Below are positions 49,078-56,351 of a DNA stretch of 64,000 bases, piece by piece; within the stretch, counting starts at the first letter, position 1; every line of letters begins with the position of its first letter. The stretch lies in NCBI GenBank assembly GCA_002368155.1, contig AP018181.1, positions 248,001 through 312,000 of the forward strand, read 5' to 3'. The position numbers and the translations under genes were made by a program. The notes under the pieces are model-generated. The model searched no databases, was not told the DNA's origin, and was given only the letters and a program-made list of their open reading frames with translations. The stretch comes from Nostoc carneum NIES-2107 (lineage in GTDB: Bacteria > Cyanobacteriota > Cyanobacteriia > Cyanobacteriales > Nostocaceae).

Positions 49078-50256
49078 TCATTTCTTCCGCTTTTTCCTAG
49101 CTGCGTCTCGCACTTGTTGATTGAGTAAGTAGCCAAAGCCGGCGGTTTCTAGGCGAGTGACGAATTCTTCGCGGGTGTTACCTAAGGCTGTGGCGGTTGC
49201 GTCTATGTTCCAGTTGTAGAAGTGTAGCTGGCTGAGTAAATAGACACGGCGGGTTTGGGCGGCGGAAAGGCGATAGGTTTTGAGATATTCGAGTTCGCCA
49301 TCTTCGCGAATAATGGCTTCGCCAATATGGTTTTCTTCCTTGGGAAGCAGACTAGTGATAAAGCGTTGCAGTACAAACGGCCCCATTGTATACACTCGCT
49401 GGGAATTTAGGGGACGTTGCAGCAATGCTTCCGCCATGAAGCCTTGAAAAGCAGCCCAATCGGATCGCATATTGGCGATCGCATTTCTCAAATCTGCCAA
49501 GCTGTTAATTTTAGCATCATCTACAGACAAATCCATCGGAAATGGCTTGTCGAACATCATGCTGTATTCGTAAATTAACTCGCCGTAGAAGTCCTCTAGT
49601 AAGCTTGTATGCAAAGCACGATAGTCTTCTGGGGTAGGAACTACAAAAGCCGATGCTAAAGTCTCAGCTACAAATACCAACACCCCAACCTGACGCGGAT
49701 GAATCTCAAATACCCGCAAAGCATCTTCTAATCCCGCGATATAACGTCCACTGAAGGACATTTCATAGCGTGAACCCAGCCCATGAGACAGAGCATACTT
49801 AGAATACTCACTCCAAGCAATATCCGGCCCAGAAAAAAATAGCGACAGAAAACCTTCCATAGCCAAATGCAGAGGTAACAATCGCAGTTGATTCTTAGTC
49901 TCCCGCTTCGCCATGCGATGCATCAACCGCACACTTGCACAACCACAGTCTAAACGCTTTCCATCCGGCTTGAACATCTGTCCACCAAAAGCGGCGATGG
50001 GGCTACCGTCATCACTCCAAGAAAGCACCAAGCCGTGAGGTATATAGGAGTAATATTGCATCTCTGGTACTGTGATTCTACCTGCTAAGGAAACCACCGT
50101 TATGTCTTCATGATAATCACGCCGCACTAAACGAAAGTCTCCGCGCACCTGACGACGCAATAAAGGGACAATCCGCACTGCACCGCGTATCTGGGATGGT
50201 GCAATTTCCAATCCTTTTAAGGATATATCTGTTAATAATTTCTGTTTGGTAGCCAT
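49078..50256 (-). CDS. Conserved protein next to vWA protein (possible ARPP-type)
   Basis: A 392-aa soluble protein starting MATKQKLLTDISLKGLEIAPSQ. The first ~250 residues look beta-rich with blocks GAVRIVPLLRRQVRGDFRLV, DCGCASVRLMHRMAKRETKN, GVLVFVAETLASAFVVPTPEDY and LLEDFYGELIYEY. The C-terminal ~60 residues (RRVYLLSQLHFYNWNIDATATALGNTREEFVTRLE) resemble a Fis-like helix-turn-helix. The order is reminiscent of ARPP ('ARG and rhodanese-phosphatase associated') domains known from RNA-repair and conflict operons; that is a recollection, not a firm call. It lies downstream of the vWA gene on the same strand, separated by a 21-bp minisatellite. The longer frame (to 50394) reads through repeat DNA. 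No ribosome binding site is visible. Confidence 0.7.
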   Translation of the reverse strand: MATKQKLLTDISLKGLEIAPSQIRGAVRIVPLLRRQVRGDFRLVRRDYHEDITVVSLAGRITVPEMQYYSYIPHGLVLSWSDDGSPIAAFGGQMFKPDGKRLDCGCASVRLMHRMAKRETKNQLRLLPLHLAMEGFLSLFFSGPDIAWSEYSKYALSHGLGSRYEMSFSGRYIAGLEDALRVFEIHPRQVGVLVFVAETLASAFVVPTPEDYRALHTSLLEDFYGELIYEYSMMFDKPFPMDLSVDDAKINSLADLRNAIANMRSDWAAFQGFMAEALLQRPLNSQRVYTMGPFVLQRFITSLLPKEENHIGEAIIREDGELEYLKTYRLSAAQTRRVYLLSQLHFYNWNIDATATALGNTREEFVTRLETAGFGYLLNQQVRDAARKKRKK

Positions 50257-50707
50257 AAGATTAAAGGGAAAGGAGAAGGGGGAAGGGGTAATGGGGAAAG
50301 GGGAAGGGGGAAGGGGGAAGGGGAAAAACTGGTGTGATGGTGTAGAGTGAAGTACTTGAGATGGTGGGTGGTGCGTTGCGCTACGCGACAACACACCCTA
50401 CTCTCCTCTTCTTTGCGCCTCTGCGCCTCTGCGTGAGACAAAAAAGCCGCAATCTTCAGCCTCAAAGGTGCAACATTTAAGCTCAAAGCCGCAACTTCCA
50501 GCCTCAAAGGTGCAACGTTCAAGCTCAAAGCCGCAAATTCCGACATCAAAACCGCAACCTTCAGCCTCAAAGGTGCAACGTTCAAGCTAAAAACCGCAAA
50601 TTCCGACATCAAAGCCGCAACTCCCACCTTCAAAGCTGCAACCTTCATGAAAACAGCGGGAAACTCCATCCCCCATGCCCAATGCCCCATGCCCAATGCC
50701 CCATCCC
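50257..50707. other. Repeat-filled spacer between the vWA gene and its partner
   Basis: About 450 bases with no gene. Left: GGGGAAGG-type purine repeats (50264-50325). Middle: a fragment of the dispersed CTTTGCGCCTCTGCG repeat (about 50405-50438), then the 21-bp minisatellite (50441-50650). Right: GCCCAAT/GCCCCAT heptamers up to the vWA stop. The open reverse frame through all of it (50232-50717) is a by-product of stop-free repeat units. Confidence 0.75.
50441..50650. repeat. 21-bp minisatellite, ten units
   Basis: Ten contiguous units of exactly 21 bp, consensus TCAAAGCCGCAACTTCCAGCC alternating with TCAAAGGTGCAACGTTCAAGC and a third type ending TTCCGACA. The period is a multiple of three, so reverse-strand translation gives a stop-free seven-residue repeat (VAALxLN-like). 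The unit types recur in an ordered pattern, indicating block duplication. Confidence 0.92.
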
Positions 50708-52135: not shown

Positions 52136-52142
52136 ATAAATT

Positions 52143-52190
52143 GAGTAATGAGTAATGAGTAATGAGTAATGAGTAATGAGTAATGAGTAG
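52143..52190. repeat. Heptamer STRR (GAGTAAT unit)
   Basis: About seven 7-bp units lie immediately upstream of the vWA start codon and replace any ribosome binding site. A related ATTACTT-type tract follows to about 52228. Confidence 0.9.
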
Positions 52191-52278
52191 GAAATTTACT
52201 TATTACTTACTACTTATTACTCATTACTTTTTTCAATTAGTTGCTGTACCTTATAAAAATCTAATCTGCTGTATTTAT

Positions 52279-52374
52279 GGTGCTGTTCGGGGAAAGATTA
52301 GCATGACTAGGTTTATCAACTTAACAGGTTGGAACGGAAGTCATACTCAAGTCCCGCGAACAGCAAGACTGAAA
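52279..52374 (-). ncRNA. Structured RNA element, copy 1 (proximal to vWA gene)
   Basis: A 96-base segment about 65% identical to copy 2, with conserved ends and strong secondary structure. Outer stem P1 pairs 52282-52289 with 52357-52364 (GCTGTTCG/CGAACAGC) and continues into GGG/CCC after a bulge. P2 pairs 52300-52308 with 52339-52347. P3 pairs CAAC 52317-52320 with GTTG 52328-52331. Three P2 pairs change in a compensated way between the copies. The two remaining non-pairs are C opposite A on the forward strand, which become G-U wobbles on the reverse strand, so the RNA is most likely read in the direction of the vWA gene. I do not recognise it as a known riboswitch. Confidence 0.6.
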
Positions 52375-52390
52375 AGTTTTATAAATTTTT

Positions 52391-52432
52391 TTAATTACGA
52401 ATTACGAATTACGAATTACGAATTACGAATTA
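52391..52432. repeat. Heptamer STRR (ATTACGA unit) between the two RNA copies
   Basis: Six units of 7 bp separate the two structured elements, so the tandem arrangement may have been extended by the repeat. Confidence 0.9.
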
Positions 52433-52435
52433 TAG

Positions 52436-52532
52436 GGTGCTGTCCGGGGAAAGGCGGCGCGACTGGCTAGGACGAATTCAAAGTTCGGGTTCGGAAGTCG
52501 CACCAAAGTCCCGCGAACAGCAAGACTGAAAA
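52436..52532 (-). ncRNA. Structured RNA element, copy 2
   Basis: A 97-base, GC-rich paralogue of copy 1. P1 pairs 52439-52446 with 52514-52521 (GCTGTCCG/CGAACAGC, one wobble on the reverse strand). P2 pairs 52456-52464 (GGCGCGACT) with 52496-52504 (AGTCGCACC). P3 pairs CGAA 52473-52476 with TTCG 52484-52487. Invariant between copies: the outer ends (GGTGCTGT, GTCCCGCGAACAGCAAGACTG) and CGGAAGT. It begins about ten bases after the stop of the 122-aa gene on the same strand. No terminator T-run follows either copy, so it is either processed from a transcript or acts as a leader element. Confidence 0.6.
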
Positions 52533-52541
52533 ACTTGAAAA

Positions 52542-52910
52542 TTAAGCGTAACAAAATTGTTTAGTTTGCGCTAGTTGTTCAAGTAATAATTCCGCAGATT
52601 TGTCCAGTGAAGTCACAAAAATACCTACTTCACTCTCTTGATTAGATGCTATCCAAGTACCTTTGAGAACAACTTCCACCGCATCAGCATCACAAGGACA
52701 AATTTCTAAAATATTTGCTTGATTTAATTTCTCTAACTCTGCCAAATTAGATAAATCACAAGGAAGTAAAAATGCTGCTTGACTAGATTCAATGTAAATA
52801 TTATTTGCAGAATGCAAAGATAGTGTAACTCTTTGATTTACCCAATTTTCTAATGAGGTTTCCAGATGTTCTAAGCTAAAGCTGTCTTCGGTGTAGGTAA
52901 GTTTTAACAT
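52542..52910 (-). CDS. Small conserved cyanobacterial protein (alr0857-like)
   Basis: A 122-aa acidic, soluble protein starting MLKLTYTEDSFSLEHLETSLENWV, with no signal or membrane segment. C-terminal Cys residues occur (ICPCDAD at about 71-77 and FCYA at the end). I recall a cyanobacteria-specific family (alr0857 family) with the same opening LKLTYTE and the segment RVTLSLHSANNIYIESSQAAFLLP; function unknown. It lies upstream of the structured RNA pair and the vWA gene on the same strand, so all could be one transcription unit of gene, two RNAs, vWA gene and partner gene. Confidence 0.7.
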   Translation of the reverse strand: MLKLTYTEDSFSLEHLETSLENWVNQRVTLSLHSANNIYIESSQAAFLLPCDLSNLAELEKLNQANILEICPCDADAVEVVLKGTWIASNQESEVGIFVTSLDKSAELLLEQLAQTKQFCYA

Positions 52911-53279
52911 ATTGGCTGACTGATATTTAAACTTTTAGGTGCTTCATCTATGTCTTAAGAATATGCGAGGGAATTTCCCCTAAGCCAATATAGCCTCAAA
53001 AGCTGGAAATGCTGATAAAACAAGGCTGAGAACGCTAGGGGAAGTTGAGAAGCTAGGGGAATCCCCGAACTTTGTCGTGCTGGGGACTGGGGATTGGGGA
53101 CTGGGGATTGGGGACTGGGGATTGGGTAATTGGTAGAGAATTTTCTTTTCTTTCCCCCTTCCCCTTTCCCCCTTCACCGTTTCCCCTTCCCCCTTCCCCC
53201 TACTAACTAAATACCCAGTGCGGAAGTTGTTAAACTTGGATAATTCCCGGTAACGTTGTCCAGTTCTACAACTACAGCG
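52911..53279. other. Divergent spacer with heptamer repeats
   Basis: About 370 bases between the divergent 122-aa gene and the NACHT gene. GGGGATT/GGGGACT heptamers (about 53082-53128) and CCCCTTC units (53153-53202) fill its centre. A TTG at 53256 could extend the NACHT frame by eight codons. Confidence 0.65.
53082..53128. repeat. Heptamer STRR (GGGGATT unit)
   Basis: About six 7-bp units identical in type to the array at 42909-43021. Confidence 0.88.
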
Positions 53280-56200
53280 ATGGCAAGAGCGAGTTATGGC
53301 CCCGAAGCAAAAAAGCGATCGCGCCGCTTGTTAGAGGTATTATTAGCTTATGCTAACGATGCCCTAGACTGTAGTGATGAAGCGAGTTTGGATGCTCTCC
53401 GTTCCCAAATCCAAACTCGCTGGCTGTCTGAGAATCGCCTAGTTGTCAGAACGAAAGTGAGATTTTTACAAACATTAACAAATTTGGCAGCAGGTGAAGG
53501 ACAATTAAACGCCGAACAAATTAAAGAAGCTTTAAAACGGTTTACAGATTTCTTAGAAATCTTAGAAGATAATCGCCCATCTCGTAGCGGTTCAGAAACT
53601 TGGCACTTTACTCTCAATTTATGGTGCGATCGCCAAGACATAGCCGCCAATTTACAAAAATTTGATATCCACTGGGAAAGCCGCCGCCCGGAGAAATCGA
53701 AGCAAGTGACAAGGGGACAAGGAGAAGCAAATTCTCCCCCATCTCCCTTATCTCCCTCATCTCCCTTATCTCCCTCATCTCCCTCACCTCCCTCATCCCC
53801 CTCATCCTCATCCTCATCCCCCGACTGGAAGCAACTTTGTCGTGATGCTTTAACGGCGCAAAATCACCAACGCTTGACTACAAATCCGCTGACGAGTGCT
53901 GATGGTGTGAGTTTTGAATTAAATCAGGTTTATGTTCCCCTGGGTTTAGTGGAACGCAAACAACGTCTGCGTCAAGGTGGCGATGTCACGCCTCAAGATG
54001 GTTCGCGGTTATATGAACCGGAAGATTCGGAAATGACTCAGAGTTTTAACCCTGATGAATTTATTCAACAATTATTAGGGGCGCAAGATAGCCAGCGCAT
54101 CGCGATTTTAGGAGAACCAGGGGCGGGAAAAACTACATTGTTGCAAAAAATTGCCGCATGGATTTTAGATAATACTGAAGATTTACCTGTCTGGGTTTCT
54201 TTGGCAGATTTACAAGGTAAAACTTTAGAACAATACTTAATTCAAGATTGGCTACCTACTGCACTTCGCAAGCTGCGCGTCTCGGAGGAAGTTGAAGAAG
54301 CATTTTGCGAACAGTTTAACCAAGGGCGAGTTTGGTTACTTTTAGATGCTGTCGATGAAATGGCTTTGGAATCTAGCCAAGCTTTAACGAAAATTGCGAG
54401 TTTTTTGACAGGTTGGGTTGCAGATGCCAGGATAATTTTGACTTGTCGGCTGAATGTTTGGGATGGCGGTAAAAATGCACTGCAAGCTTTTAAAGTCTAC
54501 CGCAACTTAAATTTTAGCTATGGCACAGAATTTTCCTTCGGTTCTAAATCTGCATCCAACCAAGTAGGAGAATTTATTCAGCATTGGTTTCAAGATAATC
54601 CCGCTTGTGGTGAAAGTTTACAAGCAGAGTTAAATCAACCAGAACGGCGACGGCTAAAAGATGCGGTAAAAAATCCCCTCAGGTTAGCTTTATTATGTCG
54701 TACCTGGGGATTAGCCCAGGGAAGATTAGCAACTACCAAAGCGATGTTGTACGAACAGTTTGTAGAGTCAATCTACGAATGGAAACAGGATCGCTTTCCC
54801 ACAACTTCCAGCCAGCGACAGCAGTTAAATCGCGCCTTGGGAGAATTAGCATTATTAGCTATTTCCCAAGAAAAAACTAAGTTTCGCCTCAGACATCGCT
54901 TTGTTTCTCAGGTTCTCGGCGCGTCTGATGATGGTTTATTTCAATTAGCATTACAGTTAGGCTGGCTCAATCAAGTAGGTATCTCCGAAACTCAGGGCGA
55001 AAAAGTTTATGCTTTTTACCATCCTACCTTTCAAGAATATTTTGCTGCCCAAGCTGTTACTGATTGGCATTTTTTCCTAAATCACACATTACATCTCAAC
55101 CCTTCCCCCTCATCTCCCTCATCTCCCTCATCCCCCTCATCCCCCTCACCCCCCAGTTACCTCATATTTGCACCCCAGTGGCGCGAAGTCATTTTGCTAT
55201 GGCTGGGTAGAGATGATATTCCGCAGACACACAAGGAAGAATTTATCCAAGCATTAATTGAATTCAATGATAACTGCGGTGGCTACTATGATTATCAAGC
55301 TTATTTTGTCGCCGCCCAAGGAATTGCTGAATTTGCAGATTGTCAAAAAGCTGATGAAATTGTGCAGCAGTTGGTAAAGTGGCGTTTTGGTTATGGCGAC
55401 TTCCAAGACGAAAAGCCGTGGAGATACCCAGCACCAATTGTAGAATGTGCGCGGGTGGCTTTATTAAAAACTGATCGCCCAAAAGCGATCGCAGCTTTAG
55501 AAAACTACATCTCTTCCAGCCAAAATGACTTTGTAATCTGGAATGCGGCTTACAGCTTGGGTAAAATTTTCGATCCAGGTAACAAAATTGCGATCGCTAA
55601 ATTAGAACAACTCGTCAAAACTATGCGTTATGATACAGTGCGCTGGCAACTTGCCTATAGTTTAGCTAGGGTCGATGCTGGTAATCAAAATGCGATCGCC
55701 GCTTTAGTAGAAATTATCGCCACTAGCAAAAATGAATCTACTCGTCGCAAAGCTGCCTATAGTTTAGGTAAAATCGACCCTCAAAATTTCATTGCCATTT
55801 CTACACTCAAGGAAATCGCTACATCTGCAATTGATTCCTCTCAAAGCCGACAAGCTTTAGAAAATTTAGCCACACTTCAAGGTGATGAGTTACCTAAATC
55901 CGCTCCAGTTTCTCCAACTTCATCATTTCATCAGCATAGAAGAAACAAGAGAAAACAAAAATCAGGCGCATCAAATTATTTCTCTATCAACTCCAAAATT
56001 TCTGAATTAATTCGCGGTATCTCCGCCTCGGAAGATGAAGATACCCAAAGAAGAAGGGCTTATAAATTAGCGCAACTCAATCCAGGTAATCCAATTGCAC
56101 TTACCACTTTATTACAATTAATGGAATCAACTGCAAGTATATCATTGCATAAACGTGCAGCCGATAACTTAAAAGAAACCATTCTCAATGAACAGTTACC

Positions 56201-56351
56201 ACAAGTAATTGCAGCTTTAAAAAATTCCAACTGCTATCAAGTTTTAGATGATGAATGGGAAAGATATCGCAACTCTTTTAAACTTCTGTGGCACTGTGCA
56301 GAAAATATGGATTATTTAGAATTTTATCGAGTTTGGCATCTTGAGAGTTGA
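53280..56351 (+). CDS. NACHT NTPase with HEAT repeats (NLR-like STAND protein)
   Basis: A 1023-aa protein. The N-terminal adaptor-like domain (1-150, MARASYGPEAKKRSRRLLEVLL to WESRRPEK) is known to me from many Nostocales NACHT and WD40 proteins. The NACHT ATPase follows: P-loop GEPGAGKTTLLQ near 278-289, Walker B VWLLLDAVDE near 362, and ARIILTCRLNVW. A winged-helix/helical region runs to about 640 (FYHPTFQEYFAAQAV), then HEAT repeats (RRKAAYSLGKID, WNAAYSLGKIF) from about 700. Family knowledge: such proteins are nucleotide switches, many in antiviral defence. No separate effector domain is visible. Odd: two Ser/Pro tracts are encoded by nine-base tandem repeats (53731-53822 and 55101-55154). 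I prefer the ATG at 53280. Confidence 0.88.
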   Translation: MARASYGPEAKKRSRRLLEVLLAYANDALDCSDEASLDALRSQIQTRWLSENRLVVRTKVRFLQTLTNLAAGEGQLNAEQIKEALKRFTDFLEILEDNRPSRSGSETWHFTLNLWCDRQDIAANLQKFDIHWESRRPEKSKQVTRGQGEANSPPSPLSPSSPLSPSSPSPPSSPSSSSSSPDWKQLCRDALTAQNHQRLTTNPLTSADGVSFELNQVYVPLGLVERKQRLRQGGDVTPQDGSRLYEPEDSEMTQSFNPDEFIQQLLGAQDSQRIAILGEPGAGKTTLLQKIAAWILDNTEDLPVWVSLADLQGKTLEQYLIQDWLPTALRKLRVSEEVEEAFCEQFNQGRVWLLLDAVDEMALESSQALTKIASFLTGWVADARIILTCRLNVWDGGKNALQAFKVYRNLNFSYGTEFSFGSKSASNQVGEFIQHWFQDNPACGESLQAELNQPERRRLKDAVKNPLRLALLCRTWGLAQGRLATTKAMLYEQFVESIYEWKQDRFPTTSSQRQQLNRALGELALLAISQEKTKFRLRHRFVSQVLGASDDGLFQLALQLGWLNQVGISETQGEKVYAFYHPTFQEYFAAQAVTDWHFFLNHTLHLNPSPSSPSSPSSPSSPSPPSYLIFAPQWREVILLWLGRDDIPQTHKEEFIQALIEFNDNCGGYYDYQAYFVAAQGIAEFADCQKADEIVQQLVKWRFGYGDFQDEKPWRYPAPIVECARVALLKTDRPKAIAALENYISSSQNDFVIWNAAYSLGKIFDPGNKIAIAKLEQLVKTMRYDTVRWQLAYSLARVDAGNQNAIAALVEIIATSKNESTRRKAAYSLGKIDPQNFIAISTLKEIATSAIDSSQSRQALENLATLQGDELPKSAPVSPTSSFHQHRRNKRKQKSGASNYFSINSKISELIRGISASEDEDTQRRRAYKLAQLNPGNPIALTTLLQLMESTASISLHKRAADNLKETILNEQLPQVIAALKNSNCYQVLDDEWERYRNSFKLLWHCAENMDYLEFYRVWHLES
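53731..53822 (+). repeat. In-frame 9-bp STRR tract inside the NACHT gene, first
   Basis: TCTCCCTCA/TCTCCCTTA units (9 bp) encode a roughly 30-residue Ser/Pro linker between the adaptor and NACHT domains. The same unit occurs between genes (17306-17330, 57944-57968). Confidence 0.9.
55101..55154 (+). repeat. In-frame 9-bp STRR tract inside the NACHT gene, second
   Basis: TCTCCCTCA and TCCCCCTCA units encode about 18 Ser/Pro residues between the NACHT-associated helical region (HTLHLNP) and the next conserved block (YLIFAPQWREVILLWLG). Confidence 0.9.

Follow-up and report, generated by a model that had tools for sequence, protein, structure and literature searches.

What role do two structured elements play that stand in tandem upstream of a vWA gene of Nostoc carneum NIES-2107? 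A preliminary description of this locus had considered them to be candidates for a Y-RNA-like or a leader RNA next to a Ro60-like gene. Ro60 proteins and Y RNAs are found in animals and in a minority of bacteria, and the function of the Y RNAs is, as described in PMC4726728, still debated. We analysed a window of 64,000 nucleotides (contig AP018181.1, positions 248,001 to 312,000) together with related loci from other genomes. Coordinates without a locus or genome handle refer to this window. According to our analysis the element, of which the window holds two diverged copies, is likely a small non-coding RNA that acts in trans and serves a divergent Ro60 protein, encoded by the adjacent gene, as a Y-RNA-like partner.

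Fold, covariation and strand of the RNA

Both copies of the element lie on the minus strand between the vWA gene and an alr0857-family gene (Table 1). They were thus found where the preliminary description had placed a tandem pair, and they fold as it had claimed. P1 starts at position 52364 in copy a and at 52521 in copy b, and a single unpaired C is located at 52356 and 52513, respectively. Compared to shuffled controls, the fold z-score of copy a was -6.3 on the minus strand and -4.6 on the plus strand, while copy b reached -4.7 and -2.2. The scores assigned to the two copies by the RNA model R1 (Table 1) are, taken alone, not independent evidence, since both copies served as training sequences of the models.

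Table 1. Positions of the RNA copies and of the genes around them in the window.
Feature	Position	Strand	Evidence and remarks
ARPP-2 protein, downstream of the Ro60-like gene	49078..50394	-	PF22549, E 4.2e-115, residues 57-338
Ro60-like protein, 475 aa	50708..52135	-	Predicted: helical residues 1-292, vWA domain about 297-475
RNA copy a (proximal to the vWA gene)	52282..52365	-	R1 92.3 bits; covarying fold
RNA copy b (distal to the vWA gene)	52439..52522	-	R1 102.8 bits; covarying fold
alr0857-family gene	52542..52910	-	NF045647, E 1.5e-45; ends about 20 nt before copy b; clade-specific neighbour

Using copy b as query in 58 genomes (this genome and relatives), the element was found in 14. From these genomes and from loci around vWA homologues 37 copies were gathered by a sequence pattern. 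Five of them (exact repeats or a double hit) were dropped and the 32 distinct ones were aligned; one degenerate copy (G005, L030) did not fit the pattern. The consensus is an unbranched stem-loop with a core of about 84 nt. It begins with P1 (8 bp), the unpaired C and the four pairs GGGA/UCCC; beyond an internal loop follow P2 (8 bp) and P3 (4 bp). P1, the GGG/CCC pairs and P3 agree with the layout drawn previously. For P2, nine pairs had been given, which can be drawn in the window copies, while the counted consensus holds eight. The unpaired nucleotide at position 9 is a C in 30 of the 32 distinct sequences and a U in two.

In the set of 32 sequences 98.7% of 768 pair cells were paired. Two-sided changes occurred at 13 of the 24 pairs, a number reached by 1 of 500 shuffles; the invariance of part of P1 and of GGG/CCC is in this set partly built in, because the collecting pattern fixes them. 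A larger set of 62 sequences, taken from 52 hand-picked loci, had 96.5% of 1477 pair cells paired (98.1% for helix 1) and two-sided changes at 19 of the 24 pairs, leaning towards the covariance model with which it was collected and aligned. Its covariation score was 0.555 compared to 0.230 ± 0.009 after shuffling and at most 0.109 with the partners slid, where both controls leave the relatedness of the sequences in place. The covariation that had been deduced from two copies therefore holds in the 32 distinct as well as in the 62 model-collected sequences. A loss of pairing in homologues, which would speak against the element, was looked for as well, and pairing was kept across the 62 sequences.

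The wobble pairs carry information on the strand. When read from the minus strand, the 32 sequences contain 66 G-U versus 4 A-C cells, and a set of 83 unique, more divergent rows contains 160 versus 27. Since reading the plus strand would turn the G-U cells into mismatches, we read the RNA from the minus strand, i.e. towards the vWA gene. This is the direction that had been predicted from the window alone.

The surroundings of the two copies are rich in simple repeats. When the stretch 52250-52560 was compared with the whole genome, it occurred in full only once, and 46 of 47 matches covered only the repeat in the spacer. This spacer between the RNA copies (52379-52434) is a short tandem repeat of ATTACGA type, which is found at more than 40 other sites in the genome. 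Another set of repeats, GAGTAAT units in tandem plus a partial copy in inverted orientation, separates the RNA from the vWA gene (52141-52236) and gives rise to spurious microRNA and Y_RNA matches when Rfam is searched. One such Y_RNA match (52165-52225, E 0.32) lay on this repeat and off the element, and was discarded as low-complexity.

The preliminary description knew no family with such a core, and Rfam gave the same answer with no match at the curated threshold in the window. At E values up to 10 the element itself drew only sub-threshold matches of HtrA_thermometer and CRISPR-DR27, which touch the outer edge of copy b. In six other loci three matches at E up to 1 were obtained, none of which was on the RNA. 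The scans of the window and of these six loci rule out a known riboswitch or RNA family. The vertebrate Y RNA model RF00019 did not match the RNA, and a tRNA or tmRNA was rejected by ARAGORN, which had no match in the window. Among the matches listed in a search of the open-licence literature, no title or abstract start describes this RNA. Judged from the alignments, we are dealing with a real, conserved RNA family that is not in Rfam.

Ro60-like features of the vWA protein

Sequence searches against Pfam and NCBIfam, and against the PDB with the single protein or with a profile, returned nothing useful for the vWA protein. For the window protein no family was obtained up to E 10, the TROVE model PF05731 included, and vWA_Ro60 (PF25045) was touched weakly by 3 of 16 aligned sequences with a best E of 0.11. 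We therefore turn to predicted structures and profile comparisons. An AlphaFold model of the window protein, based on an alignment of 16 sequences, had a mean pLDDT of 84.6. In a Foldseek search of the PDB with this model, all five matches at E<0.001 were Ro60 or Deinococcus Rsr. For the model of the Archangium homologue (pLDDT 86.0) the corresponding number was ten out of ten. The query TM-scores against Ro60/Rsr were moderate (0.38-0.57 for the two models).

A profile of 23 sequences was compared to 11 cyanobacterial TROVE proteins using hhalign, and 373 columns were aligned with an E value of 1.7e-9. Compared separately with TROVE, the N-terminal halves reached a score of 35.8, for which 30 column permutations gave no more than 22.8; for the vWA halves the score was 40.4, versus 17.8 when reversed. 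The MIDAS-type residues D305, S307, S309 and D380 are invariant in the 23 aligned sequences, while T358 is present in at least 90% of them. Since the structure models, the TROVE profile comparison and the MIDAS-type residues agree, we consider the protein to be a divergent Ro60-like protein beyond the family models tried. It is predicted from the models to have the Ro60 architecture, i.e. a helical-repeat ring followed by a C-terminal vWA domain. The label Ro60-like, which the gene had received from the sequence alone, is borne out by the two models and the profile comparison.

A classical TROVE/Ro60 protein is encoded in the same genome outside the window (G000:C1:1310888-1311769). Such proteins were found in 26 of 194 cyanobacterial genomes, this genome included. 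In six of the genomes with classical TROVE (G012, G026, G083, G119, G169 and G171) neither the vWA protein nor the RNA was found, such that the RNA does not follow classical TROVE.

Linkage of the RNA to the Ro60-like gene and its neighbours

A genome scan with the protein alignment provided the best 80 of 231 loci for a closer comparison. They belong to Cyanobacteria, to Myxococcota and related delta-type bacteria and to two Beggiatoaceae (Parabeggiatoa and Thiomargarita), and they include one record titled Comamonas, where the name is taken from the title alone. Upstream of the gene and in its orientation, R1 detected the RNA in 74 of these 80 loci, with one copy in 62, two copies in 11 and three copies in one of them. 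R1 had been trained on cyanobacterial copies only and matched all 23 loci with non-cyanobacterial record titles among the best 80 of 231. From a total of 105 R1 matches, 18 on the reverse strand were dropped from the counts of strand, spacing and flanks.

Most loci missed by R1 have particular circumstances. The RNA of L143 was recovered by a second model, R2, that had not been trained on it (L143/L044, E 1.5e-8); it was not listed in the whole-genome model search. For L088, L101 and L133 the contig ends 39, 293 and 3 nt upstream of the protein match, and in these genomes the RNA is located near the start of another contig with its strand reading off the contig. The remaining two, L067 and L093, are loci of Nostoc sp. 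106C and T09, where the RNA is on a different contig (see below).

Whole genomes gave a similar picture. The vWA protein was present in 17 and the RNA in 13 of 386 cyanobacterial genomes, where all 13 were among the 17; this RNA count is informative mainly for the absence elsewhere, because all 13 genomes had provided R1 training sequences. The RNA scan used strict filters, which can lose weak matches. Two protein-positive genomes without an RNA in the scan (G060, G071) have weaker model matches directly upstream of the gene. The RNA of G088 was found by R2, and the contig of G091 breaks off within the vWA gene (match from residue 53). In 193 Myxococcota genomes the protein was found in 48 and the RNA in the same 48, always 35-75 nt upstream, where R2 had been trained on sequences from some of these species and the Fisher p-values of the co-occurrence leave kinship uncorrected. 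Provided that the vWA protein counts as Ro60-like, the RNA thus has a Ro60 gene as its neighbour in 74 of the best 80 of 231 loci and in 48 of 48 Myxococcota genomes. Many scattered copies away from vWA genes would have counted against the preliminary description. None were seen in the genomes searched apart from two exceptions, an orphan copy in one myxobacterium and the RNA of the two Nostoc strains, which lies apart from the gene. The orphan (G544, L238:4826-4909, minus strand) is a second copy 13 kb from the vWA-linked one and keeps most pairs. On plasmid pNe_3 of Nostoc edaphicum, which is typed as conjugative, the RNA stands upstream of the Ro60-like gene, and a XisH/XisI pair lies between this gene and the next hypothetical gene (L239:5478-6217).

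Downstream of the vWA gene follows the gene for ARPP-2. Its open reading frame in the window is listed from a GTG, and the true start is probably further in. An ARPP-2 gene comes after the vWA gene on the same strand in 73 of the best 80 of 231 loci; of the seven loci without it, two are truncated and five have 6 kb lacking ARPP-2. ARPP-2 is probably the partner enzyme or effector of the putative Ro60-like/RNA complex, with its gene completing the cassette. A known defence system was rejected on the basis of PADLOC, which gave no model for either the Ro60-like or the ARPP-2 protein. On the plus strand (53256-56351) the cassette is adjoined by a gene for an EAD4-NACHT-HEAT protein of conflict-system type, and a related open reading frame is found in 13 of the best 80 of 231 loci.

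Separate transcript, leader or other element

In 29 of 87 copies the RNA is preceded, at a distance of 5-7 nt, by the end of an extended -10 box (TGnTAnnnT), and in one more at 10 nt, compared to 43 of 3810 background windows, where the motif was chosen after inspection of some flanks and the loci are related. Many lineages outside Nostoc carry this box. From its position, transcription would start at the base of P1 where the box is present. Nostoc-type copies do not have it at the expected place, and by eye the flanks in the window have none. Here, a conserved CAGTCTT is found directly 5' of the RNA, in the window at 52522-52528 and 52365-52371 (minus-strand reading) and in many other Nostoc-type copies. 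It is perhaps a processing site of a transcript that comes from the alr0857 gene. On the 3' side, T-runs follow directly after P1 in L105, L117, L138 and L144. At least four T within the eight bases after the RNA are seen in 29 of 87 copies, with a mean T fraction of 0.38 versus 0.27.

The first matched vWA codon follows the RNA after 16 to 579 nt, and in 59 of the 74 loci with a match (best 80 of 231) it does so within 100 nt. In Nostoc sp. 106C and T09, both of which are draft genomes and in which the decoupling may be one shared event, RNA and vWA gene are on different contigs. The RNA is still beside the alr0857 gene and has another gene downstream. At the vWA loci of these strains the model found no RNA, nor was one seen by eye in the 420 nt upstream. 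Between the two strains the RNA is identical at 78 of 84 positions with all P1 positions unchanged, compared to 95.6-98.1% identity in longer neighbouring stretches; a stronger constraint on the decoupled RNA was looked for in this comparison and not found.

Promoter position, T-runs, decoupled copies and variable spacing together favour a trans-acting RNA. From the earlier alternative between a Y-RNA-like and a leader RNA, the Y-RNA-like separate transcript is thus the favoured half, and a role as leader may exist as well. We consider it unlikely that the element is instead a cis-acting leader, i.e. the structured 5' end of the vWA mRNA, through which expression would be controlled once the encoded Ro60-like protein or another ligand is bound. 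Such a leader fits the finding that the RNA lies ahead of the gene and in its orientation in every one of the 74 loci with a match, in most of them at a short distance (both among the best 80 of 231), and the mRNA would begin with the RNA wherever the -10 box is present, because the box precedes it. Against this stand the two Nostoc strains with RNA and gene on different contigs, the orphan in G544, the spacings of 16 to 579 nt, the four loci with T-runs directly after P1 and the two or three copies in 12 of the 74 loci (best 80 of 231).

The promoter-like box before 29 of 87 copies and the unlinked copies in two Nostoc strains and one myxobacterium would also be accounted for by an independent base-pairing sRNA sharing the promoter region of the vWA operon by chance. 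We regard such an sRNA as quite improbable: the RNA co-occurs with the protein across phyla, and conservation is centred on the lower stem, the unpaired C and the UUCCG stretch rather than on a loop seed. Hardly any weight is left for an element at the DNA level, such as a mobile repeat or an integration site with incidental pairing. The tandem copies, the simple repeats around them and the recurrence of the inter-copy spacer at many genome sites would suit it, but the excess of G-U over A-C on one strand contradicts a DNA-level reading. Two-sided covariation and the single locus of the RNA itself in this genome are further points against a repeat.

We thus return to the trans-acting, Y-RNA-like partner as the likely role of the RNA. 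Sequence comparison shows one conserved fold, the strand, the near-exclusive gene linkage and the -10 box in many lineages outside Nostoc; that RNA and protein bind to each other is what we infer. The RNA would then act in trans within a ribonucleoprotein and not primarily as an mRNA switch. Its lower stem, with the unpaired C at position 9 and the GGGAC and UUCCG stretches, would dock on the outside of the ring, and the variable upper part could gate the ring or tether a partner. The ring in turn would take free ends of damaged or misfolded RNAs.

Animal Ro60 is described to bind the lower stem of the Y RNA on the outside of its ring, where the vertebrate site combines the sequence GGUCCGA with a C that bulges out at position 9 and, across from it, a bulge of three nucleotides (PMC4726728, PMC11277228). 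Vertebrate Y RNAs (RF00019) and the RNA described here share a lower stem that pairs the two ends and leaves one C unpaired at position 9. In contrast to the vertebrate Y RNAs, our RNA has neither GGUCCGA nor the three-nucleotide bulge, the opposite strand being continuous in the consensus, and an oligo-U tail directly after P1 occurs in only a few copies. Among bacteria, Deinococcus uses a Y RNA to tether Rsr to PNPase (PMC7790460, PMC8058203). As in the Rsr/Y RNA/PNPase system of Deinococcus radiodurans and in Salmonella rsr-yrlBA-rtcBA, a protein with Ro60 fold, here a predicted one, is encoded together with a structured non-coding RNA (PMC7790460, PMC8058203). Our case differs from these systems in that the protein matches no TROVE model of Pfam, the RNA matches no Rfam family and ARPP-2 is the neighbouring gene. 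Unlike bacterial YrlA, the unbranched stem-loop also contains no tRNA-like module, in agreement with the ARAGORN result.

For ARPP, an enzymatic activity on sugar moieties, for example on the ribose of ADP-ribose, has been proposed (PMC9503650). That ARPP-2 may have this activity as well is a step of our own. In the ARG/ARPP conflict systems described in the same source, an ARPP-family protein is found near vWA proteins, as is the case here. There, however, the vWA protein is given as a peptide-binding chaperone beside ARG and phosphatases (PMC9503650), while here a full Ro60-like protein (predicted) is accompanied by an RNA.

We see an even chance that the cassette represents a separate, ancient branch of Ro60 ribonucleoproteins, consisting of a ring missed by the sequence libraries tried, its own class of Y RNA and an ARPP enzyme. 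It would have moved as one cassette between Cyanobacteria, Myxococcota, sulfur-oxidising Gammaproteobacteria and, as a diverged version, plasmids of Bacillota, and what the RNA brings to the RNAs caught by the ring would be ARPP chemistry instead of PNPase. Already with the RNA as a Y-RNA-like partner there would be a further bacterial lineage of the Ro60 complex with an RNA of unrelated sequence. One could then ask which features of Y RNAs are essential, as paired ends and the bulged C recur while the sequence does not. The uncharacterised ARPP proteins would also become connected to Ro60 in a way that can be tested. According to record titles, the cassette is present in genera with cultured strains, such as Nostoc, Myxococcus and Corallococcus.

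More distant homologues of the Ro60-like protein were seen as well. A 462-kb (jumbo) phage record and two viral contigs (L241, L242, L243) encode proteins of 23-27% identity, and no credible match of the RNA model was obtained in them (best E 0.72). Plasmid pB6464 of Alkaliphilus sp. B6464 (Bacillota) encodes a 25% identical Ro60-like protein (L240:3842-6414) followed by ARPP-1, with TerD upstream. A stretch upstream of this gene (L240:3391-3582) folds with a z-score of -4.3; its P1 is long, its P2 is similar to that of the family, and it contains GCGATTTCCG. A motif derived from the consensus, though built after seeing this locus, is expected 0.0006 times in 450 nt. The covariance model did not match the Alkaliphilus locus and ARAGORN found nothing there, so that a relation of this upstream stretch to the family is a lead from folding and inspection by eye. 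Its lower stem has a similar layout, the upper domain is much larger and P1 is followed by a T-run. Within the upper domain a T-arm-like stretch, GGTTAGAATCC, can be recognised by eye.
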